Source: Bacteroidaceae bacterium
Lineage (GTDB): Bacteria; Bacteroidota; Bacteroidia; Bacteroidales; Bacteroidaceae
Assembly: GCA_017551845.1 (NCBI GenBank)
Contig: JAFZKR010000124.1
Location: forward strand, 1-8,150
Direction of reading: 5' to 3'
DNA length: 8,150 nt
The notes below the pieces were generated by a model, which saw nothing but the letters and a program-made list of their open reading frames with translations, was not told where the DNA came from and did not search any database. How positions within the stretch are numbered: the first letter of the stretch is position 1; the number at the start of each line of letters is the position of its first letter. Of the stretch, positions 1 through 8,150 are shown one piece after another. The position numbers and the translations under genes are program-made.

Positions 1-711
1 CTCAGCACTGGTGGGGACCCTCCAGCTACCTCCCCACTTGACATGAGCCACATCATCCTCCTGGTCCAATACAGTCTTACTATCCTTATCGGAATACTTG
101 GTATAATTGCCCCTGACTCCATCCACACTGAATTTATAGGTTGCATAACTGTATTCCGTCTTAGTATCAGTCTCACCCCAAGCGTATAGTCCGCCAACAT
201 CTTCGGGCTTATTGGCCCCCACATTACATGTAGCCCACTTTACACTCAGGCCCAGGTCAACGCATTCATGCTGAACATTATCCTGAACTGACTCATTTAC
301 CACTTTTTCTGTCGGGAACGGGCCTTGAAGCACATAATCATAGATGGTTTCTTCCAAACCGTCAAACTCTGATAAATCAACTGCCTGCGGTTGTGCTTGC
401 AGTTTGATTTCATGATAAGTGTTGGTTATGGGTAGTATCACCTTTTCAAAACCTTCCTTGTGAATACACAGCCTGTCGCCTGGTTTTACCAGACGGAAAG
501 AAAATCGACCTGTTGAATCAGTTCTGGTGTCTGTTACAAAATAATCGTTCACAGAATCCAGTTCCATAATATGGACCTTTGCAATAGGAACATCACTATC
601 TGTAACAACACCAGTTATTATATCACCAGTATTGGGCATATGCTGAGCTAACACGGAAACAGCAACTGCTTGAAACAGCAATACTGACAATATGACTATA
701 TGCTTTTTCAT
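1..711 (-). CDS. Secreted FISUMP-like protein with carboxypeptidase-regulatory-like domain (3' end outside window)
   Basis: Reading from the ATG at 711, the frame is open for 237 codons and leaves the window at base 1, so the C-terminus is missing. Residues 1-22 form a signal peptide (MKKHIVILSVLLFQAVAVSV, then LAQ). Residues about 30-105 resemble the CarboxypepD_reg-like beta-sandwich (GVVTDSDVPIAKV, then DSTGRFSFRL and a late KEGFEKV), a common surface-protein module in Bacteroidetes. From residue 151 a FISUMP-like domain begins with VDLGLSVKWATCNVGA, continues YAWGE and EDDVAHVKWGGSWRVPT, and is cut by the window edge. The start is supported by a TAnnTTTG promoter about 20 bases upstream. 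A paralogue of the FISUMP part lies at 1951-2703 and is nearly identical over 21 residues. The product is probably envelope-associated or secreted. Its substrate or partner cannot be told from sequence. Confidence 0.85.
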   Translation of the reverse strand, partial: MKKHIVILSVLLFQAVAVSVLAQHMPNTGDIITGVVTDSDVPIAKVHIMELDSVNDYFVTDTRTDSTGRFSFRLVKPGDRLCIHKEGFEKVILPITNTYHEIKLQAQPQAVDLSEFDGLEETIYDYVLQGPFPTEKVVNESVQDNVQHECVDLGLSVKWATCNVGANKPEDVGGLYAWGETDTKTEYSYATYKFSVDGVRGNYTKYSDKDSKTVLDQEDDVAHVKWGGSWRVPTSAE

Positions 712-736
712 ATTCAATGATATGTCGTTTCTGGGA

Positions 737-771
737 CAAATGTAAGTATAGATAGTGTATCATAACAACAA
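737..771 (-). promoter_or_regulatory. Bacteroidetes-type promoter for the secreted protein at 1-711
   Basis: On the minus strand, TACATTTG (744 to 737) matches the Bacteroidetes -7 consensus TAnnTTTG exactly. A TTG at 768-766 lies 21 bases upstream, and a second TTG at 771-769 is three bases further. Both are reasonable for the -33 element. The predicted transcription start is near 730-733, which leaves a leader of about 20 bases before the ATG at 711. No GGAGG-like ribosome binding site is seen, which is normal for this phylum. Confidence 0.7.
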
Positions 772-777
772 ATAGGC

Positions 778-795
778 GTTGCAAAACTGTTGCAA
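778..795 (-). promoter_or_regulatory. Direct pair of TTGCAAC heptamers upstream of the promoter
   Basis: The plus strand reads GTTGCAA at 778-784 and again at 789-795; on the minus strand this is TTGCAAC twice, 11 bases apart. One helical turn between two identical heptamers, at about -47 to -64 from the predicted start of the 1-711 gene, is a plausible position for an activator binding as a dimer. The regulator is unknown and the match could be chance. Confidence 0.3.
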
Positions 796-890
796 TCACT
801 TTACACCCTTATACTTCACTGCCAGCCTGCACAGTATATCCAGTTCCTCTATGAGTCTGGTTCGAAAACTGGTATCCTTCGGGGTACAAG
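796..890 (-). pseudogene. Possible remnant: C-terminal end of an unidentified gene
   Basis: On the minus strand one frame ends at TGA (798-796) and reads RTRLIEELDILCRLAVKYKG then VK. This is a plausible amphipathic, charged helix and looks like a real protein C-terminus. Going upstream, the frame runs straight into the palindrome at 891-930 and then into antisense-like sequence near the transporter's stop, so no believable 5' part remains. The frame's only nearby start (a GTG inside the palindrome) would give about 42 residues. I do not recognise the family. It may be the tail of a gene truncated when the palindrome and transporter segment came to lie here, or a chance open frame of about 30 codons. 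The rest of 712-890 holds only the promoter and heptamer pair. Confidence 0.3.
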
Positions 891-930
891 AAAATGTGAA
901 ATTGGGGACAGTCCCCTTTTTCACATTTTT
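891..930. repeat. Palindromic intergenic element, copy 1 (GGGGAC-A-GTCCCC core)
   Basis: The left arm is AAAATGTGAAATTGGGGAC (891-909), the centre is A910, and the right arm runs 911-930 (GTCCCC, TTTTT, CACATTTTT). The arms pair over 19 bases except for two T-T mismatches next to the G-run (ATTGGGG against CCCCTTT). On the minus strand the element starts at the last bases of the transporter's TAA stop (932-930) and ends in a T-tract, so it could also serve as that gene's intrinsic terminator. It is nearly identical to copy 2 and in the same orientation. Confidence 0.85.
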
Positions 931-1898
931 TATTTTTGGCGGGCAAAGATGTTAGCCAGGATGGTGCCGCTAATGCTGTGCCAAGCACATGATATGGCGC
1001 AGGGGACTACGGCCATCGGATTAGTGGTCACAAAGAAAGTCATTGCCAGGTTGGTGCCTAGGCCGGCGTTCTGCATGCCCACCTCTATAGATAGGGTACG
1101 TTTTTTGGCCGTATTGAACCTGAACATTCTGCCCACCCAATAGCCCAGCACGTAACCTATTGTATTGTGGCAGAACACCATACCGAAAGTGAGCAGGAAC
1201 AGTATCAGGCCGTTCTCCACCAGCGGATCATGAACGGTAGTTATAACACCGCCCACAATGCACGCCAAACAAATTACCGATACGCCCGGCATGCAACCCT
1301 GAATCTTGCGGAACACATCCTTGTGCCCCAGCCATACGTTCAGCAGGAAGCCGATAGCTATTGGAATGATAGTCACTATGAGTATCTGGCGGAACATGCC
1401 CCATGCATCAACATCAACCCTCTCGCCTGCAAGCATAAGCACAAGCAGCGGCGTGAGTACTGGAGCCAGCAGGGTCGATACGCAGGTCATACCCACCGAG
1501 TAAGCCACATCGGCCTTACAAAGAAATGACATGATATTGCTCGATACTCCTCCCGGACAGCAACCCACAAGGATTATGCCGATGGCCATAGCTGTGCTGT
1601 ACGGTGCAAAGGCGGGCACCCGGCTGAACAGCCATGAGAGCGAGAAAGCCACCAGAGGCATTATTGTAAACTGGGCAACAGCACCTATCAGTATGTCAAA
1701 CGGCCGCTTCGCCAGAAGCTTGAAATCATTAGGCGTAAGCGTGAGTCCCATGGTGAGCATGATAATACCCAGAATGATGGTCTGCATATTTCCCTTAACC
1801 CATGCAAAGATCCCCGGGAAAAAGAATGTCACCACAGCAGTCAGTATTATAAACAGACTGGCCTGGGCGCTTAGAATATCACTTAATCTTTTGAACAT
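930..1898 (-). CDS. Bile acid:sodium symporter family (BASS/YocS-PanS-like) transporter
   Basis: This is a 322-residue integral membrane protein, nearly all hydrophobic helices with short loops, matching bacterial BASS proteins in length. Two family signatures are visible: GCCPGGVSSNIMSFLCKADV (residues 112-131, first core crossover region) and EVGMQNAGLGTNLA (residues 272-285, second crossover). Such proteins import organic anions with sodium. Bacterial members include transporters of ketopantoate-type substrates and possibly bile acids, and the substrate here cannot be decided. I chose ATG 1898 (MFKRLSDILS). The frame stays open to an ATG at 1985, but those 29 extra codons read through the palindrome at 1915-1952 and the end of the neighbouring gene and are not transporter-like. 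Only 52 bases separate it from the upstream gene and I see no promoter, so it is probably co-transcribed. It is bracketed by two near-identical palindromes. Confidence 0.92.
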   Translation of the reverse strand: MFKRLSDILSAQASLFIILTAVVTFFFPGIFAWVKGNMQTIILGIIMLTMGLTLTPNDFKLLAKRPFDILIGAVAQFTIMPLVAFSLSWLFSRVPAFAPYSTAMAIGIILVGCCPGGVSSNIMSFLCKADVAYSVGMTCVSTLLAPVLTPLLVLMLAGERVDVDAWGMFRQILIVTIIPIAIGFLLNVWLGHKDVFRKIQGCMPGVSVICLACIVGGVITTVHDPLVENGLILFLLTFGMVFCHNTIGYVLGYWVGRMFRFNTAKKRTLSIEVGMQNAGLGTNLAMTFFVTTNPMAVVPCAISCAWHSISGTILANIFARQK

Positions 1899-1914
1899 GA
1901 TTGACAAAAAAAGC

Positions 1915-1952
1915 AAAATGTGAAATTGGGGACTGTCCCCTTTTTCACATTT
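1915..1952. repeat. Palindromic intergenic element, copy 2 (GGGGAC-T-GTCCCC core)
   Basis: The left arm AAAATGTGAAATTGGGGAC (1915-1933) is identical to copy 1. The centre is T1934 instead of A. The right arm is GTCCCCTTTTTCACATTT (1935-1952). The same two T-T mismatches lie beside the G-run. On the minus strand it overlaps the TAA stop (1953-1951) of the 250-residue secreted protein and ends 16 bases before the transporter's start codon, so it fills most of this intergenic space. Confidence 0.85.
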
Positions 1953-2703
1953 AAGGGAAGACGGGACGGACGGCAAAGCCGTCAAAACGTAAGGATATAT
2001 CTACACTTAGTTTGTCTTGCCCCATCATAATATCGCATGAGTTGTTAGTGTTATCAGGGCTGATGGAACTTGACCAATAGTAACCGATGGAATCAACATG
2101 GAAAAGAGCCGTACCGTCACGACCTCCGGTAGCCGGAAGGAAAATGGAGCGTTCCTCATAGCCCGGTTTGTTTCCCCTCACCGCGTAACCTTTCACGTTA
2201 TTGAGGGTAGTCCAGGTCCAGGTACAGCTGTCTATGAGTTCCCGGAATTCATCCAAGGTGGGCATACGCCAACCATCGCCCCACAACACATGCGCCACGT
2301 CATCCTCAAGGTCAAGTATCCTCTTGTTATCTGTAAAGCCGTTATAGCCCTGTTCAGCGTCGTAACAATATTTGGTAAGCTGCCGATATGATTCTCTGTA
2401 GAATCTGTAGCCTGATACATTATAACCATCCTCATAACTTGGCTCCAACTCGCCCCAGGCATAGTAGTCACCATAATCCTCCGGTTTATCGGCCCCCACA
2501 TTACAAGTGGCCCACTTTACGCTCAAGCCCAGGTCAACGTATCCATGAACCTTTTCAATGCGCTCCACCTTGACACCAGGCAACTTACTGAGCTCCTCTT
2601 GAAGACGCAGCAACAGTGAATCCATGTATTTCTGCTGGGCATTTGCAGGAATGCAGAAAAACAACAGGACACAAAGAGGTTTCACCCTACTGAGTAATTT
2701 CAT
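1951..2703 (-). CDS. Secreted FISUMP-like domain protein, 250 residues
   Basis: An N-terminal signal peptide (MKLLSRVKPLCVLLFFCIPA, then NAQ, residues 1-23) is followed by a short helical, charged stretch (residues 27-50) and one FISUMP-like domain reaching the C-terminus. The domain opens with VDLGLSVKWATCNVGA (56-71) and YAWGE (81-85), continues EDDVAHVLWGDGWRMPTLDE (133-152) and FLPATGG (188-194), and closes with GYYWSSS (207-213) and FAVRPV (243-248). This order matches the domain found in many paralogous secreted proteins of Bacteroidales and Fibrobacter; its biochemical role is not established. ATG 2703 is chosen because the signal peptide starts there. Upstream there is no promoter, only the compound palindrome at 2711-2763, which ends 7 bases before the ATG. 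The stop codon overlaps palindrome copy 2. It is a paralogue of the gene at 1-711. Confidence 0.88.
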   Translation of the reverse strand: MKLLSRVKPLCVLLFFCIPANAQQKYMDSLLLRLQEELSKLPGVKVERIEKVHGYVDLGLSVKWATCNVGADKPEDYGDYYAWGELEPSYEDGYNVSGYRFYRESYRQLTKYCYDAEQGYNGFTDNKRILDLEDDVAHVLWGDGWRMPTLDEFRELIDSCTWTWTTLNNVKGYAVRGNKPGYEERSIFLPATGGRDGTALFHVDSIGYYWSSSISPDNTNNSCDIMMGQDKLSVDISLRFDGFAVRPVFP

Positions 2704-2710
2704 AACTCAC

Positions 2711-2763
2711 GTGCAAAAGGGGACAGTCCCCAATTGCACCCCCAATTGCACCTTTTTGCATTT
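2711..2763. repeat. Palindromic intergenic element, copy 3, compound with a duplicated half-arm
   Basis: The core hairpin is GTGCAAAAGGGGAC (2711-2724), A2725, GTCCCCAATTGCAC (2726-2739). It pairs fully except for two A-A mismatches beside the G-run. The half-arm CCCCAATTGCAC (2728-2739) is repeated exactly at 2740-2751, and a third, degenerate half-arm CTTTTTGCATTT follows (2752-2763). The step tag (AAA on the left, ATT on the right) is reversed relative to copies 1 and 2, so this copy is inverted. It occupies the whole gap between the stop of the 561-residue protein (TAA 2764-2762) and the start of the 250-residue protein (2703). Confidence 0.82.
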
Positions 2764-4447
2764 ACTTGATCAGGACCTTGCGGCCATCAATGATATATGG
2801 ACCTTTATCAATCGTGTTGACGCCCTGGCCATTCAGATTGTAGATTTCTCCCTTGCCCTGGATTTCGTTGTGTACTTGTCCTATTTTGGTTTGGTCAGGT
2901 ACGTACGGGCCGAAGACAATCTCAAACGCCATCTCCTCCGAGTACACATTCTTAGCTTCCTGTGTCAGCCACAAATAGCCGCATAAGCCGTTGATACCGG
3001 CAGGCATTTCAGGATAATAGGGGTGCGGGGGATAGAAAAGCACATAAGGCGGCTCGGTGGTAATGGAAGCAGGTCCATACAGGAAGAGTACCGTTAAAGG
3101 ATCATCCGAGATAGTGCCCTGGCTCAGCGTAGGTATGAAATCGGCATATTTCGAGCTCACCGTCTGCACGGTTTTTTTGACCGTGACATTCTGGAACGGA
3201 TAGTTAAAGAGGTCCTTTGCCATCTCAGCTTTGACCAAGTATGGCTTACCGGCCTCGAGATCGGTCACATCGTCAAAATAGAGCTTCAAAGTGGGACCGA
3301 AGGCCGCACTGGTTCCACCCTCGTATGACGAGCCTACGAATGCCTTTGCGCTCAAGCCCAGTTTGGAATCAAAACCGCCCGGGAGGTCGAACGGAAGCGT
3401 CAGGATGTTCCAACCCTGCTGCAGTTTGGCGCTGATGATCACATCAGTCGTAGCTCCGTCCAATGCTTCGAGCTTGGCACTATTGTCCTCATTATCGGCT
3501 ATGATGTTATAGGATTCATCATATTCTATCACAACCTCGTCATCATATTCGGGCATCGTTACCCACCAATCGTATCTGCGCAAATAAAAAGAATGAGGAG
3601 AATAGCCTTCAGCCCCTGATTTTGCCAACGTGACGCTCTTGACAACCTTATTGCCCGAGTATGTCAGTACGGTAACCTTATTTTCCGGAGCGGGGTTAGG
3701 ATCGATAGTCCAGAATTCGGCATCCTCCGTACCCTCCTTGATAGTCAGGTTGTGAGCGTTGACGTATGCGGTGAATTCGATACATGGACGGACAAGACCT
3801 TTAACCTCCATGTCGAATGCACTGTAAGTACTGTTTGAAGTAGTAGTAAGCAGGGAAAAGAAGAATGCCCACCTTATGTCTCCACCCACAGTTATCGGTG
3901 TAGTGGTGGTCCAATAGCCAAATCCATTGGTCTCATGGACAAAATCAGTTCCTCCGGCTGCAACAATCATTGTACGTATATCGCCATAGGAAAATTCATA
4001 ATCGTCCATTTCATAACTTGAAGCGCTATCGGGCAGAGGGTCTATAAATGTAGATGTACTTCCACAACCTATGAACATATTCTCCCAGTCGGCAACCGAA
4101 GGCAGACGCCACGTTCCCCATTCAACAGCATGTGTTGTATTATAGGTCTGCGCCAGCTCGATAGCAGGAGGGCAATGATTGATCACCTCCGCCGATGCAT
4201 CCTCCAATGCGATGGCGAGTCCCTTCTGTTTATCCTGATTAATGTAGGCAATCATAGCTACGGCGGTCTTACCGTCGGCCGTTGCCTCCGATACTGTGGC
4301 ATAAATGCTGCCGTCAACGCACACTACCTTGCCGATATCATCGGGCGATAAATAAACACCTTTAGCAACGATGCTCTGTGGAAGCATTGTCATTGTCAAT
4401 AGCAGAATGGCTGCCAACGGGCCAAATGAGAAAAGTCTTGTCTTCAT
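2762..4447 (-). CDS. Secreted protein with WRLP/FISUMP-like domain and Bacteroidales C-terminal tail, 561 residues
   Basis: A signal peptide spans residues 1-29 (hydrophobic core LAAILLLTMTML, likely cleaved after IVAK or nearby). Residues about 36-225 resemble the DUF1566/FISUMP fold: GTWRLPSVADWENMF (111-125), GFGYWTTTTP (175-184) and VRPCIEF (219-225) are the landmark positions. Residues about 335-410 carry GWNILTLPFDLPGG and AGKPYLVKAEM, a beta-rich module common in large Bacteroidales surface proteins. The C-terminus, GEIYNLNGQGVNTIDKGPYI then IDGRKVLIK (533-561), is the short tail found on many secreted Bacteroidales proteins, often assumed to act in sorting or anchoring. It shows no lipobox, so it is probably periplasmic, surface-exposed or released. 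Only 13 bases separate it from the HIT gene upstream, so the two may share a transcript. Its function is unknown. The stop codon abuts palindrome copy 3. Confidence 0.85.
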   Translation of the reverse strand: MKTRLFSFGPLAAILLLTMTMLPQSIVAKGVYLSPDDIGKVVCVDGSIYATVSEATADGKTAVAMIAYINQDKQKGLAIALEDASAEVINHCPPAIELAQTYNTTHAVEWGTWRLPSVADWENMFIGCGSTSTFIDPLPDSASSYEMDDYEFSYGDIRTMIVAAGGTDFVHETNGFGYWTTTTPITVGGDIRWAFFFSLLTTTSNSTYSAFDMEVKGLVRPCIEFTAYVNAHNLTIKEGTEDAEFWTIDPNPAPENKVTVLTYSGNKVVKSVTLAKSGAEGYSPHSFYLRRYDWWVTMPEYDDEVVIEYDESYNIIADNEDNSAKLEALDGATTDVIISAKLQQGWNILTLPFDLPGGFDSKLGLSAKAFVGSSYEGGTSAAFGPTLKLYFDDVTDLEAGKPYLVKAEMAKDLFNYPFQNVTVKKTVQTVSSKYADFIPTLSQGTISDDPLTVLFLYGPASITTEPPYVLFYPPHPYYPEMPAGINGLCGYLWLTQEAKNVYSEEMAFEIVFGPYVPDQTKIGQVHNEIQGKGEIYNLNGQGVNTIDKGPYIIDGRKVLIK

Positions 4448-4460
4448 ATTAATAATGTAT

Positions 4461-4850
4461 TCAAAGGGCAGCGCGGATATCGGCTGCTATTTTCTCGAAT
4501 TCCTCGGGAGTGAGCTTGAGTTTGGGATTGCTGAAGAGCATGTCCTTTTCGGACTGCATGGGGATGAGATGGATATGTGCATGCGGCACCTCAAGGCCCA
4601 GCACGGCCTCGCCCACCTTGATGCAGTTAAACACTTTCTTCTGGGCTGCTGCTATCTTTTTGGCAAAGAGCTGCAAGTCACAGAGCTCCTTATCGGTAAG
4701 GTCGAACAGATAATCCACCTCACGCTTGGGAATGCAAAGCACATGCCCCTTCACCAGCGGGTTGATATCAAGGAAAGCGAAACAGTTCTCCGTCTCCGCA
4801 ATCTTGTAGCAGGGAATCTCACCTGCAATTATTCTTGAAAAAATAGTCAT
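4461..4850 (-). CDS. HIT family (histidine triad) nucleotide-binding hydrolase
   Basis: The product has 129 residues, typical of the Hint branch of the HIT superfamily, whose members hydrolyse the bond to the phosphorus in adenosine phosphoramidates and related nucleotides. The signature is PHAHIHLIP (89-97) with the triad His90, His92 and His94. Other family landmarks are IFSRIIAGEIP near the N-terminus, LDINPLVKGHVLCIPKRE (27-44) with His36, and N75 plus G80 before the triad. The N-terminal CxxC zinc pair of some relatives is absent (IFSRI). ATG 4850 gives the usual MxIF start; a longer frame to 4880 would begin inside palindrome copy 4. It lies between greA and a secreted protein gene, both on the same strand, with the palindrome separating it from greA. 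It is probably cytoplasmic housekeeping. Confidence 0.93.
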   Translation of the reverse strand: MTIFSRIIAGEIPCYKIAETENCFAFLDINPLVKGHVLCIPKREVDYLFDLTDKELCDLQLFAKKIAAAQKKVFNCIKVGEAVLGLEVPHAHIHLIPMQSEKDMLFSNPKLKLTPEEFEKIAADIRAAL

Positions 4851-4868
4851 AGATTTTCGGCTTTTATA

Positions 4869-4909
4869 AAAATAGTACAAAAGGGGACAGACCCCTTTTG
4901 TACTATTTT
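4869..4909. repeat. Palindromic intergenic element, copy 4; likely also a bidirectional terminator
   Basis: AAAATAGTACAAAAGGGG (4869-4886), loop ACAGA (4887-4891) and CCCCTTTTGTACTATTTT (4892-4909) form a perfect 18-base stem with a five-base loop. This copy lacks the AAA/ATT mismatch of the others; its core is GGGGACAGACCCC. On the minus strand it begins 5 bases after the greA stop codon and is followed by a run of T, as expected of an intrinsic terminator for greA. The plus strand also has T after the stem. It ends 18 bases before the HIT start codon. Confidence 0.88.
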
Positions 4910-4914
4910 AGATT

Positions 4915-5379
4915 TTAGAGGGAAATTTCAAGGATCTCGAACCCTATCTTGCCGCTGGGTATCGAAATCTCCACGGTCTCACCCGCCTTGTGGCCCAGCA
5001 GGCCCTTGGCAATCGGGGTGTTGCTCGATATCTTGCCGGACTTGAGATCGGCCTCACTCTCCGGAACGATGGAGTAAGTCACCACCGCATTGTTCCTGGT
5101 GTTGCGGAGCTTCACCTTGGTAAGAATCTGTACTACCGATGTGTCAATCTTGCTCTCGTCAATGAGCTTGGCGTCGGCAATCTGAGCCTTCAGGGTAGCT
5201 ATCTTGGCCTCAAGCATCCCCTGAGCCTCCTTGGCTGCATCGTACTCGGCATTCTCGGACAAGTCACCCTTGTCACGTGCCTCAGCAATCTGCTGAATGA
5301 CCTCCGGACGGCGCACGCCCTCCAGATACTGTAACTCGGCTACCAGCTTCTTGTAGCCCTCCTCTGACATATATGCCAT
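4915..5379 (-). CDS. greA: Transcription elongation factor GreA
   Basis: The protein has 154 residues, close to the 158 of E. coli GreA. The N-terminal half is the coiled-coil finger that enters the RNA polymerase secondary channel and stimulates cleavage of backtracked transcripts; its tip, RDKGDLSENAEYDAAKEAQG (35-54), carries the two acidic catalytic residues D39 and E42 (equivalent to E. coli D41 and E44). The C-terminal FKBP-like domain follows, with SIVPESEADLKSGKISSNTP (103-122) and KGLLGHKAGETVEI. The start MAYMSEEGYKKL is the form usual in Bacteroidetes; Met4 (5370) is an alternative. The gene has its own promoter (5489-5519) and a leader of about 100 bases with a terminator-like hairpin, suggesting control by early termination. 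Palindrome copy 4 follows 5 bases after the stop. Confidence 0.97.
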   Translation of the reverse strand: MAYMSEEGYKKLVAELQYLEGVRRPEVIQQIAEARDKGDLSENAEYDAAKEAQGMLEAKIATLKAQIADAKLIDESKIDTSVVQILTKVKLRNTRNNAVVTYSIVPESEADLKSGKISSNTPIAKGLLGHKAGETVEISIPSGKIGFEILEISL

Positions 5380-5424
5380 AATAACAATATTTTATCTTCT
5401 CAAAAAAACAGTTTCGACATGAGC

Positions 5425-5462
5425 AAAAAAGAATTCCAACATATCACTGAGGGATGTTGGAA
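5425..5462 (-). terminator. Intrinsic terminator-like hairpin in the greA leader
   Basis: On the minus strand TTCCAACAT (5462-5454), an 11-base loop, and ATGTTGGAA (5442-5434) form a perfect 9-base stem followed at once by TTCTTTTTT (5433-5425). An AAAAGA tract just before the stem can extend pairing into the T-run. It lies downstream of the lipoprotein gene's stop (5558) and also downstream of the greA promoter, so it could end lipoprotein transcripts and attenuate greA. The rest of 5380-5557 shows no gene. Confidence 0.65.
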
Positions 5463-5488
5463 CGCTCTTTTCCACTATGTCTTCACTG

Positions 5489-5522
5489 CAAAGATAGGAT
5501 TATTTGATTACCTACCCAACAA
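5489..5522 (-). promoter_or_regulatory. greA: Bacteroidetes-type promoter for greA
   Basis: The minus strand carries TATCTTTG (5496-5489), an exact match to the -7 consensus TAnnTTTG. A TTG at 5519-5517 lies 20 bases upstream, with a second TTG at 5522-5520, giving a normal -33 element. The predicted start is near 5482-5485, about 100 bases before the greA ATG and about 20 bases before the leader hairpin. Confidence 0.7.
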
Positions 5523-5557
5523 TTGACACTTTTTTTTATCCGATATCCGAAATTGAA

Positions 5558-6733
5558 TCACTCGGCCACCAGCTGTGCAATCTTCCCGTCCAGACTCTTC
5601 TGGTCATCGGGCCGCTCCACGATATTGCCTTCGCGGTCAATGAGGAAGGCGGTAGGAATCGTGCTCACGTTATAAGACCTGAGATACTGCGATCCAAGGC
5701 TGTTCTCGTCATGCACGCACACCCACGGCAGGTTCACGGCCGCATTCACCCAGAAACTCTCGTCGCTGTCCACTGACACCTGATAAATCTCGAAGCCCTT
5801 GCTGCTGTACTTGTTATATAATTCACGCATGGCCAGGTTGTAGTTCGATGACCACTCCGTCTTGTACGCGGTGAAATCCAGCAGCACCACACTCCCCTTC
5901 AGGCTGCTCAGGCTGCGTATCTTCCCCTTCACGTCGGGCAGCTCGATATCTATCAGCCCCGTCTCATTCACCACGATACTGTTGAACAGCTCCATAGTCT
6001 CTTCCGATGCCGGTTTCGTCCGGGGCTGCGTCCTGGACATACCCTTCATGGCCACATTATGCAGATGCGCCGTCCTAACGGCATCCGGATAATACATATC
6101 CATCTGAGTGGCCACAGCTGCAAAACAGCGGGCATCCTGACGGTCAACCTGCGGATTGAACAGCATCTGCCCGTTGGCGCTTATGAACAGCACGTAATAG
6201 GCGTATGGCGTACTCGGGTCAGGATAAATGTAACCGTTCATCAGGTCGCTCTTGAACACATCCACCAGCTCCTGCACACGCCCCTGCAGCACGCCCGTCT
6301 CAATACCTGAAAACTCATCGTACGTGCGGCGCAGGTCACGCATGAACTGCATCTGCCGGAGCATAATCTCCTTCAGCTTCACACAGTTCTCCGAGCCCTC
6401 CACCGTATAGCCTGTCTGCATAGTGGGCAGGTCGGCCTTCACGGTCACAGTCTCCGTTGAGTCAATCACCAGATTCACATACTGGTTCCCTATCCTGAGG
6501 CGGTAGAAATCGAAGCACTCCTCCGGAGCCGGTTCGCCGAAGCTGAAAGCGCCGTCGGCACCCAGTTTCACGGAATCCAACGTCTCAATCCTGTCAATGG
6601 CCACATGGTCCAGATAGAGCGTCTTGCCCTCGGCTCCGGTTATACCGCCATTTACAGCAAACCTGTCAACTGCTGGTTGACAGGCTGCACTCAATATAGA
6701 TATTGCCAGTAAGGCAATGTCAATTCTCCTCAT
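5558..6733 (-). CDS. Putative lipoprotein: DUF4369-like domain plus TlpA/thioredoxin-like domain lacking the CxxC
   Basis: The product has 391 residues. The N-terminus [18 protein letters not shown] is a lipoprotein signal with the acceptor Cys18 (L-S-A-A-C, a slightly relaxed lipobox). No acidic export tag follows the Cys, so it may face the periplasm. Residues about 25-115 resemble DUF4369 ([43 protein letters not shown]), and residues 120-255 are helical. Residues 265-391 are a thioredoxin-like fold: [33 protein letters not shown], then [16 protein letters not shown] with the cis-proline P360. Where TlpA and ResA have W-C-x-x-C, this protein reads AYKTEWSS with no cysteine, so ordinary disulfide chemistry is not expected. 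ATG 6733 is supported by the signal peptide; its start overlaps the end of pnp by 14 bases, which suggests translational coupling. A longer frame upstream is antiphase pnp sequence. Confidence 0.88.
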
Positions 6734-8150
6734 TATTGTTACGGTCTTCGTTGTTCCGTCTGAACCTTCTGTCACCGCCGAAGGGACGATGTCCGCGCTC
6801 ACCACGCTCGCCACGTTCACCACGTTCGCCGCGGTCACTGTGCTCCTGACGCTCCTGACGCGGAGGTCTGGCCGGACGCTCCTCGTAACCCTCGGGCTTC
6901 TCGAACAGCACCCTGCGTGACAGCTTGAACTTACCGGTTTTGGCGTCGATGTCAATCAGCTTGACCTGGATCTTGTCGCCCTCCTTGATGCCGGTCTCCT
7001 CGATGGTCTCGTAGCGCTTCCAGTCAATCTCACTGATGTGCAGCAGACCGTCCTTACCGGGCAGGAACTCCACGAACAGGCCGTAAGGCATTACTGAACG
7101 GACAGTACCGTCATAAACCTCACCTACCTCAGGAATGGCAACGATAGCGCGTATCTTGGCCAGAGCAGCCTCGATGCTGTCGCGGTTGGAAGCAGCAACC
7201 TCAATCTTGCCTACGCCGTCCACCTCATCAATGCTGATGGTAGCGCCGGTCTCCTCCTGCATACCCTGTATGATCTTTCCGCCCGGGCCAATGACTGCAC
7301 CGATGAACTCCTTGGGAATGGTAAGGGTCTCAATGCGGGGTGCATGGGGCTTGAGGTCGGCACGAGGCTCAGCGATAGTCTCGGTTATCTTGCTCAGTAT
7401 ATACTCACGTCCTGCCTTGGCCTGAGCCAGAGCCTTCTCCAGAATCTCGTATGAAAGTCCGTCGCACTTGATATCCATCTGTGTGGCGGTAAGACCCTTC
7501 ACGGTACCGGTGGTCTTGAAGTCCATATCACCCAGATGATCCTCATCACCAAGGATATCGGAAAGAACAGCATACTTGTCCTCGCCCGGGTTCTTGATAA
7601 GACCCATTGCTATACCTGATACGGGGTTCTTTATCTTTACGCCGGCATCCATAAGAGCAAGTGTACCTGCGCACACGGTAGCCATTGATGAAGAACCGTT
7701 TGACTCAAGGATATCGGATACTACGCGTACGCAGTAAGGATAATCCTCGGGAATCTGACCTTTCAGTGCGCGCCAAGCCAGATGGCCGTGACCAATCTCG
7801 CGACGTCCGGTGCTGCGCTGAGCCTTAGCCTCGCCTGTGCAGAAAGGCGGGAAGTTGTAGTGGAGCAGGAAACGCTCGTCGTGCTGGTCCAGCACATCAT
7901 CCACCATCTTCTCATCCTCCTTGGTACCCAGTGTAACAGAGCACAGAGCCTGTGTCTCACCACGGGTGAATATCGATGATCCGTGAGGTCCGGGCAGATA
8001 ACCCACCTCGCACCAGATAGGACGGATATCGGTTGTCTTACGGCCGTCCAGACGCTTGCCCTCATCGAGCACGCAGCGACGCATTGCATCGCGCTCCACA
8101 TCGTGGTAGTAACGGTCTATCAGGGCGTCCTTCTCGGCCAGCTCATCCTC
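6720..8150 (-). CDS. pnp: Polynucleotide phosphorylase (5' part outside window)
   Basis: The last 476 residues are present; the frame is open to base 8150 ([17 protein letters not shown] leads in) and roughly the first third of the protein lies outside. PNPase degrades RNA 3'-5' by phosphorolysis as a ring-shaped trimer in the degradosome. In order, counting from the window edge: the end of the helical linker; the second RNase PH domain with [14 protein letters not shown] (about 63-76) and the catalytic [13 protein letters not shown], whose aspartates 204 and 210 and Lys212 correspond to E. coli D486, D492 and K494; a KH domain with the GxxG loop IGPGGKIIQ (287-295); an S1 domain (about 342-417, [32 protein letters not shown]); and an Arg/Gly/Glu/Asn-rich tail that ends NNNEEN. 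The GTG at 8099 is internal, not the start. The TGA stop overlaps the next gene. Confidence 0.97.
6797..6832 (-). repeat. Four 9-base repeats encoding Gly-Glu-Arg units in the PNPase tail
   Basis: On the plus strand the units are GCTCACCAC, GCTCGCCAC, GTTCACCAC and GTTCGCCGC, encoding [14 protein letters not shown] in the C-terminal extension after the S1 domain. Most differences between units are synonymous. Nine-base in-frame repeats can gain or lose units by slippage without breaking the frame. The tail is low-complexity and cationic/acidic mixed; RG-rich tails often bind RNA or partner proteins. Confidence 0.75.

Follow-up and report, generated by a model that had tools for sequence, protein, structure and literature searches.

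Two kinds of transposase-associated repeat stand closest to the elements described here. In the available excerpts of the literature, TIRYT genes are flanked by repeats, part of which carry the motif GGGGWSAS, and some of which are self-complementary or fall into families (Di Nocera et al. 2013, PMC3733652). These families are moderately abundant, with many members arranged as dimers or clusters (PMC3733652). Subclass 2.1 of the repetitive extragenic palindrome (REP)-associated tyrosine transposases (RAYTs) probably corresponds to the TIRYTs and to RAYT group 1, which ranks among the largest groups of RAYTs, and its members have helix-turn-helix (HTH) extensions; the accessible part of the 2018 survey reports no REP-like secondary structures near its genes (PMC6006769). 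The second kind comprises the REP hairpins of E. coli and their transposase TnpA_REP, which, according to the excerpt at hand, needs mismatches in the hairpin stem (PMC8266576). Here we consider four palindromes in an 8,150-nucleotide (nt) stretch of a gut-type Bacteroidales genome, that of a Bacteroidaceae bacterium (contig JAFZKR010000124.1 of assembly GCA_017551845.1, positions 1 to 8,150), hereafter the window. Very probably, they are REP elements of a TIRYT-like system (RAYT group 1) in one Bacteroidales genus, and as such short hairpin DNAs that are non-autonomous.

An earlier note on this DNA had placed four palindromes between 891 and 4909. All four are where it put them, and each of their arms GTGAA, GTGCA and GTACA does face its exact complement (TTCAC, TGCAC and TGTAC, respectively). 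The palindromes and one partial element are as follows:

891-929, plus strand: copy 1, a putative REP element of arm type GTGAA/TTCAC with core GGGGACAGTCCCC, immediately following the stop codon of an SBF/BASS transporter gene
1915-1952, plus strand: copy 2, a putative REP element of arm type GTGAA/TTCAC with core GGGGACTGTCCCC, sharing 2 nt with the stop codon of the minus-strand gene at 1951-2703
2711-2739, minus strand: copy 3, a putative REP element of arm type GTGCA/TGCAC, beginning some 21 nt past the stop of the minus-strand gene at 2762-4447
2740-2751, minus strand: half-element duplication CCCCAATTGCAC, directly adjoining copy 3
4869-4909, no strand assigned: copy 4, a putative REP element of arm type GTACA/TGTAC with core GGGGACAGACCCC, in the intergenic space between greA and a HIT-domain gene, 5 nt behind the greA stop codon

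All four are singletons lying 0 to about 21 nt behind a stop codon. In copies 1-3 the shoulders between core and arms read AATT/TTTT or, in copy 3, which has the opposite polarity, AAAA/AATT, and they separate the GC stem from the outer stem by a 2x2 internal loop, T.T or A.A; copy 4 is the only one fully paired at this place. Folded as single-stranded DNA, the whole elements reach -10 to -18.5 kcal/mol and, over both strands, z-scores from -4.05 to -11.62; for seven of the eight folds none of 200 shuffles was as good, and for the remaining one a single shuffle of 200 was. The core pattern, allowing up to two mismatches, has eight strand-matches in the window (seven exact and one with one mismatch) against a mean of 2.38 in 200 dinucleotide shuffles of it. 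Since two of these shuffles also reached eight, the short core taken alone is only moderately unexpected. A known structured RNA was rejected as the identity of the palindromes, no Rfam family matching the window at gathering scores. Half-element duplications like that beside copy 3 also adjoin whole copies at three loci (L159, L162 and L165) of a related genome, G002, and are possibly scars of cutting and rejoining.

The window encodes no transposase, as the earlier note had said, and the results on copy number, covariation and RAYTs that follow come from the draft genome assemblies of relatives. The thioredoxin-like protein encoded on the minus strand of the window has four relatives, 86%, 83%, 61% and 39% identical to it, of which the first three belong to metagenome-assembled genomes of Bacteroidaceae or Bacteroidales. 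The nearest genus, comprising 37 genomes, includes these three. A stricter form of the palindrome pattern, AAWWGGGGACNGNCCCCWWTT, matches 11 of 301 genomes of the family, and all 11 fall within this genus (11 of its 21 members in the draw versus none of the 280 other genomes). The pattern AAWWGGGGWCNGNCCCCWWTT matches 24 of the 37 genus genomes, with up to 92 sites on one strand and tens in many of them, so that the further copies with covarying arms that the earlier note had proposed to look for do exist. For these 21-base patterns the reversed-pattern control gave zero throughout the relatives. Whole elements recur as well: the 29-mer of copy 1 is identical to one in G305 (C17:81-109), that of copy 4 to one in G300 (C44:22598-22626) and that of copy 3 to three sites of G002 (L158:1212, L161:1212 and L172:819), and the nearest relative of copy 2 differs from it at 3 of 41 nt (L080:3011, in G246). 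Several arm types coexist in single genomes; among the places listed for G305 there are GTACA, GTACC, GTGCA, GTGAA and GAGCA. Four genomes (G028, G151, G305 and G313) also hold palindromes of the same core whose arms (ACACA, ACCCA, GCCCA and others) stand one base nearer to it; these are largely complementary by eye and lie outside all copy counts given here.

The earlier note had taken the paired changes between arms as a sign of selection on a hairpin. Copies 1 and 2 have the same arm type, which leaves three types in the window, and the claim therefore needed the relatives, where it is borne out. Of 180 distinct sites gathered, 13 were removed because they lacked three A/T bases on at least one side of the core. 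The inner four arm pairs are fully Watson-Crick in 139 of the remaining 167 copies, against a mean of 48 and a maximum of 68 copies when right arms were shuffled among copies (5000 shuffles). The left arm meets its exact complement in 61 of 70 copies with TACA, 45 of 50 with TGCA, all 21 with TACC, 5 of 8 with TGGA, 4 of 7 with TGAA, 1 of 2 with TGTA and both with GCCA; four rare arm types, seven copies altogether, have no exact complement. The outermost arm position is free to form any purine-pyrimidine pairing and does not covary (GC 59, AC 39, GT 34 and AT 31 of 167). In a second set, 142 of 154 copies passed the A/T filter and yielded 135 distinct 41-mers. These have a Watson-Crick fraction of 0.826 versus 0.772 in 1000 shuffles (maximum 0.798), ten further pair types versus 5.6 (maximum 9) and 154 doubly changed cells versus 115 (maximum 136), and sliding one arm by 1-3 bases lowers the fraction to 0.185-0.457. 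In 99 of the 167 copies the dinucleotides flanking the core oppose each other as AA/AA or TT/TT and so do not pair.

Near-perfect symmetry and a fixed core would also suit operators bound by a DNA-binding regulator, with selection acting on the double-stranded sequence. Yet the arms change pair by pair with their complements across many copies, and a dyad-symmetric operator would not favour the 2x2 mismatch of those 99 copies. With genes called by a crude longest-open-reading-frame method, only 2 of 28 classified palindrome clusters (24 from G002 and the four of the window) stand between divergent genes, as against 6 between convergent and 20 between tandem ones; a further 12 G002 clusters were counted inside an open frame, and four lay too near a contig edge. 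We hence regard operators as a most improbable account of the family.

Within the genus, the palindromes are linked to a particular lineage of transposases. PF01797 was found in one of the four first relatives (G003) and in 100 of the 301 family genomes. A 21-row alignment of a RAYT class of about 265 residues served as search profile and for the domain and motif checks. At E <= 1e-5 this profile matches 24 of the 37 genus genomes, in 22 of them below 1e-60, some of the matches being fragments. The Y1_Tnp domain is present in all 21 proteins, and the HxH and Y-x3-NP motifs are invariant in the alignment (H69, H71, Y128, N132 and P133). At the C-terminus HTH_23 matches 10 and HTH_28 matches 8 of the 21 (E <= 10; best E 6.8e-5), while Bac_DnaA_C was not among the 24 families listed for this domain search. 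The NCBIfam model of the REP-associated tyrosine transposase scored the three proteins scanned at 4.4e-14 to 6.7e-17, below its cut-off. Against the Protein Data Bank (PDB), the sole hit of the profile up to E 0.01 is 4er8 (E = 0.003), and the same TnpA_REP structure is the best PDB match of an AlphaFold2 model (E = 7e-7; mean pLDDT 85.7), which has helices between 205 and 264. The RAYT of this genus is a Y1/HUH enzyme of the REP-associated kind with a C-terminal HTH. In the RAYT gene of G246 (L080, 1424-2281) the frame seems to continue through a palindrome remnant at the C-terminus (KGTVLFG), and in G002 the ends of several genes fall within a palindrome.

For 31 distinct RAYT proteins with readable flanks, the presence of the core GGGGWCNGNCCCC within 220 nt was labelled mechanically. 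It stands on both sides of 8, on one side of 3 and on neither side of 20. The earlier note had suggested REP-like elements mobilised by a Y1/RAYT transposase whose gene would be flanked by the same palindromes; these eight same-genus genes, lying between such palindromes, give that suggestion its support. Together with one of the one-sided RAYTs (L090) the eight form a nine-member clade with support of 100/100, whose flanks show GGGGWCAG. Having or lacking the core requires three changes on the RAYT tree, and none of 500 shuffles gave as few. The nine genomes with a member of this clade have 30-176 pattern hits, both strands summed; in the other 28 genus genomes the number ranges from 0 to 136, with 13 at zero and 7 having at least 20 (Mann-Whitney p = 8e-5). 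Copy 4 of the window differs at 2 of 41 nt from two palindromes (L079:3380 and 7294) of a G179 stretch that holds a RAYT gene (4545-5342). Several RAYTs outside the clade sit, by eye, between palindromes of another, mostly asymmetric core, and a near-identical RAYT in four genomes (L087, L089, L094 and L121) has none of the present core palindromes within 220 nt.

Several points weigh against the REP reading. Evidence on RAYTs and copy number comes from the relatives and not from the window's own genome; a shorter 13-base pattern gave 0-1 reversed-control matches a strand versus 73-100 hits in two genomes; and the covariation shuffles ignore the relatedness of copies through common descent. 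Having any RAYT does not predict having palindromes (16 of 24 versus 6 of 13 genomes; p = 0.30); the general link was hence rejected, and the matching clade alone gave one. Two RAYTs outside the clade (L084 and L128) show one such core each, on a single flank. The GTGCA arm occurs near the 31 RAYTs in the mixed set at L119 (G305) only, and GTGAA, the arm type of copies 1 and 2, occurs within 220 nt of none of them. The RAYT of G246 has no such core beside it, despite the wealth of GTGRA copies in that genome; a different palindrome flanks this RAYT, which was rejected as the owner of these arms. Finally, four copy-rich genomes (G002, G207, G313 and G316, with at least 67 hits, both strands summed) have no full-length RAYT in their assemblies.

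The last of these points, together with the lack of an examined RAYT beside a GTGAA arm, would fit a family that is partly a relic, having spread under a RAYT now lost and been inherited since, such that the elements of the window are immobile today. Such a history is compatible with a REP origin. On the other side, a contig of G003 (L003) ends near 12210-12225 inside a palindrome; with contigs broken in this manner and assemblies in draft, repeat-flanked RAYT loci may have been lost in assembly. Moreover, the GTACA type of the window matches palindromes near an intact RAYT gene. We therefore see a partial relic as a minority prospect, though one to be taken seriously. As REP elements, whether still mobile or not, the palindromes suggest that the genome of the window has, or had, a RAYT of this kind.

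The palindromes show a marked bias of position. A called stop codon is found within 30 nt of 27 of 37 clusters in G002, 35 of 52 in other genomes and four of four in the window; for random positions the proportions are 9%, 9% and 10%, respectively. A weaker excess is seen near starts (12 of 37, 12 of 52 and 3 of 4, versus 8%, 10% and 13%). Ten of the 12 in-frame clusters of G002 also lie, by reading, at or near the 3' end of the frame, the two others being those at L156 and L186. Palindromes further occur as close pairs, 36 in the loci, of which 30 are spaced by 42-48 or 62-69 nt; 18 of the 23 pairs in which polarity is readable in both members are inverted.

A place behind stop codons is where intrinsic, mostly bidirectional transcription terminators would be found, and one might ascribe the likeness of the copies to selection for a hairpin and T residues at gene ends and their covariation to RNA structure. 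A terminator scan does call positions 904 and 1928 on the plus strand and 4880-4899 on both strands. The calls at copies 1 and 2 are on the plus strand only, yet the genes that these copies follow are on the minus strand. Identical 29-mers recur across genomes, and the common sequence is longer than termination needs. Nor would terminators account for a restriction of all 11 stricter-pattern genomes, among 301, to one genus, or for spaced inverted pairs and for copies that bracket transposase genes belonging to one clade. We consider terminators an unlikely identity of the family as a whole; a secondary terminator role of individual REP copies is possible.

Sites that lack a palindrome in relatives bear on how the REP copies came to their places. 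The greA-HIT junction of copy 4 was matched in 32 genomes, given as loci in 30 and had a readable greA in 28. At 26 of these 28 no palindrome is present; 12 of the 28 loci, at which the HIT frame runs across the greA stop and no HIT start was reported on its own, were judged by eye as being without one. The two remaining junctions, in G002 (L195) and G316 (L201), hold palindromes of a different, asymmetric core, and the site has apparently been occupied on more than one occasion. For four orthologues of the transporter (94-95% identical), the flanking sequence examined contains no counterpart of copy 1 or copy 2. The window's 3' flank of this gene is common to G314 and G233 only, and the 5' neighbours differ in all four; hence, only copy 1 is truly comparable at the orthologous site. 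In both G314 and G233 (L220 and L221) its place is taken by an ordinary terminator-like hairpin, followed by CTTGTACCC as in the window. This hairpin counts in favour of the terminator account, and one possibility is that a REP element may have replaced a native terminator there. Orthologous sites without a palindrome thus exist, and they fit gain and loss alike.

The genes around the palindromes are the following:

930-1898, minus strand: SBF/BASS sodium-dependent transporter (PF01758, E = 5.7e-41), between copies 1 and 2
1951-2703, minus strand: weakly FISUMP-like protein (E = 1.2e-4, below the cut-off of the model)
2762-4447, minus strand: protein of 561 residues without a family match
4461-4847, minus strand: HIT-domain protein (PF01230, E = 1e-20), forming the other border of the copy 4 site
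4915-5379, minus strand: greA, on which the comparison of orthologous copy 4 sites was based

The frame at 6720-8099 reads as a putative polynucleotide phosphorylase. A cut-off frame from 1 to about 700 shares a 99-nt stretch with the FISUMP-like gene (172-270 and 2449-2547; 79% identity). A further inverted repeat (5425-5471, with arms of 18 nt, 83%) between the thioredoxin-like gene and greA is probably an ordinary terminator.

By analogy with what the available excerpts say of the REP/RAYT family (PMC8266576, PMC6006769), the elements would be recognised as hairpins, cleaved and transposed. When the DNA is single-stranded, one strand would fold into a hairpin made up of the fixed GC core, an outer stem and, in most cases, a 2x2 A.A/T.T internal loop. 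The HUH-Y1 enzyme would recognise this hairpin, cleave beside it and join copies, singly or as inverted pairs, into other places, chiefly those immediately after stop codons. Change of the outer stem by compensatory substitution would then split the family into arm types, three of which stand in the window, and the core type would go with the enzyme lineage. A bolder form of this proposal, which we put forward as speculation with the chances rather against it, is that an enzyme of the RAYT group 1 type works here with true hairpin REPs whose foot ATGAT/ATAGT replaces GTAG, and whose insertion behind stops can displace native terminators. One element would then be mobile DNA, supplier of stop codons and terminator at once, its arms changing compensatorily under recognition by the enzyme.

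The family resembles the E. coli REP/REPIN elements and TnpA_REP, as far as the excerpts describe them, in its short extragenic hairpins, dispersed and flanking a Y1 RAYT gene, in its inverted pairs and in its stem mismatches, the 2x2 shoulder mismatch recalling those that E. coli TnpA_REP requires (PMC8266576, PMC6006769). The regular spacing of inverted pairs known from REPINs is seen in the relatives, the window copies being singletons; a position near the 3' ends of genes is reported, in the text available, for other REPs too (PMC3733652). It differs from canonical REPs in the rarity of the GT[AG]G guide at the foot: of 334 feet, GTAG forms 2 and GTGG 16, ATGAT (96) and ATAGT (44) being commonest, and for copies with the GTGGA arm the GTGG is itself part of the paired stretch. 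The RAYT here is also longer and has an HTH extension.

Two described groups share the host phylum. The CGTC REPs are likewise short dispersed palindromes, reported from Bacteroidetes too; in the excerpt available they are said to lack a dedicated transposase, unlike the present family (PMC3733652). CGTC forms none of the 334 feet, and one CGTC lies farther out beside copy 2 of the window. RAYT subclass 2.6, mostly from Bacteroidetes, has atypical flanking structures with copies elsewhere in the genome; the RAYTs here are set apart from it, by description, through the C-terminal HTH described for subclass 2.1 in the available part of the survey (PMC6006769). Among the matches listed from open-licence papers, so far as their text was available, there was none on such a REP family in Bacteroidetes or Prevotella. 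The genus appears to pair group 1 RAYTs with hairpin REPs, and the coexistence in it of several arm types and several enzyme lineages offers natural material for the coevolution of Y1 enzymes with their hairpins and for what replaces the GTAG guide.

The closest likeness is to the TIRtron/TIRYT system. The relatives' proteins have the Y1 HUH and Y---NP motifs and the C-terminal HTH of subclass 2.1, and the repeats share GGGGWSAS, self-complementarity and an arrangement as dimers with those described in the excerpts (PMC3733652, PMC6006769). GGGGWSAS stands on at least one strand of all 167 copies, largely by construction of the collecting pattern, and the assignment to group 1 is made on features, compared by description with subclass 2.1. 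Compared with the TIRYT repeats, so far as the available text presents them, the family described here is distinguished by clear hairpins with covarying arms, by tens of copies per genome, by a core that follows the enzyme clade and by its Bacteroidales host.

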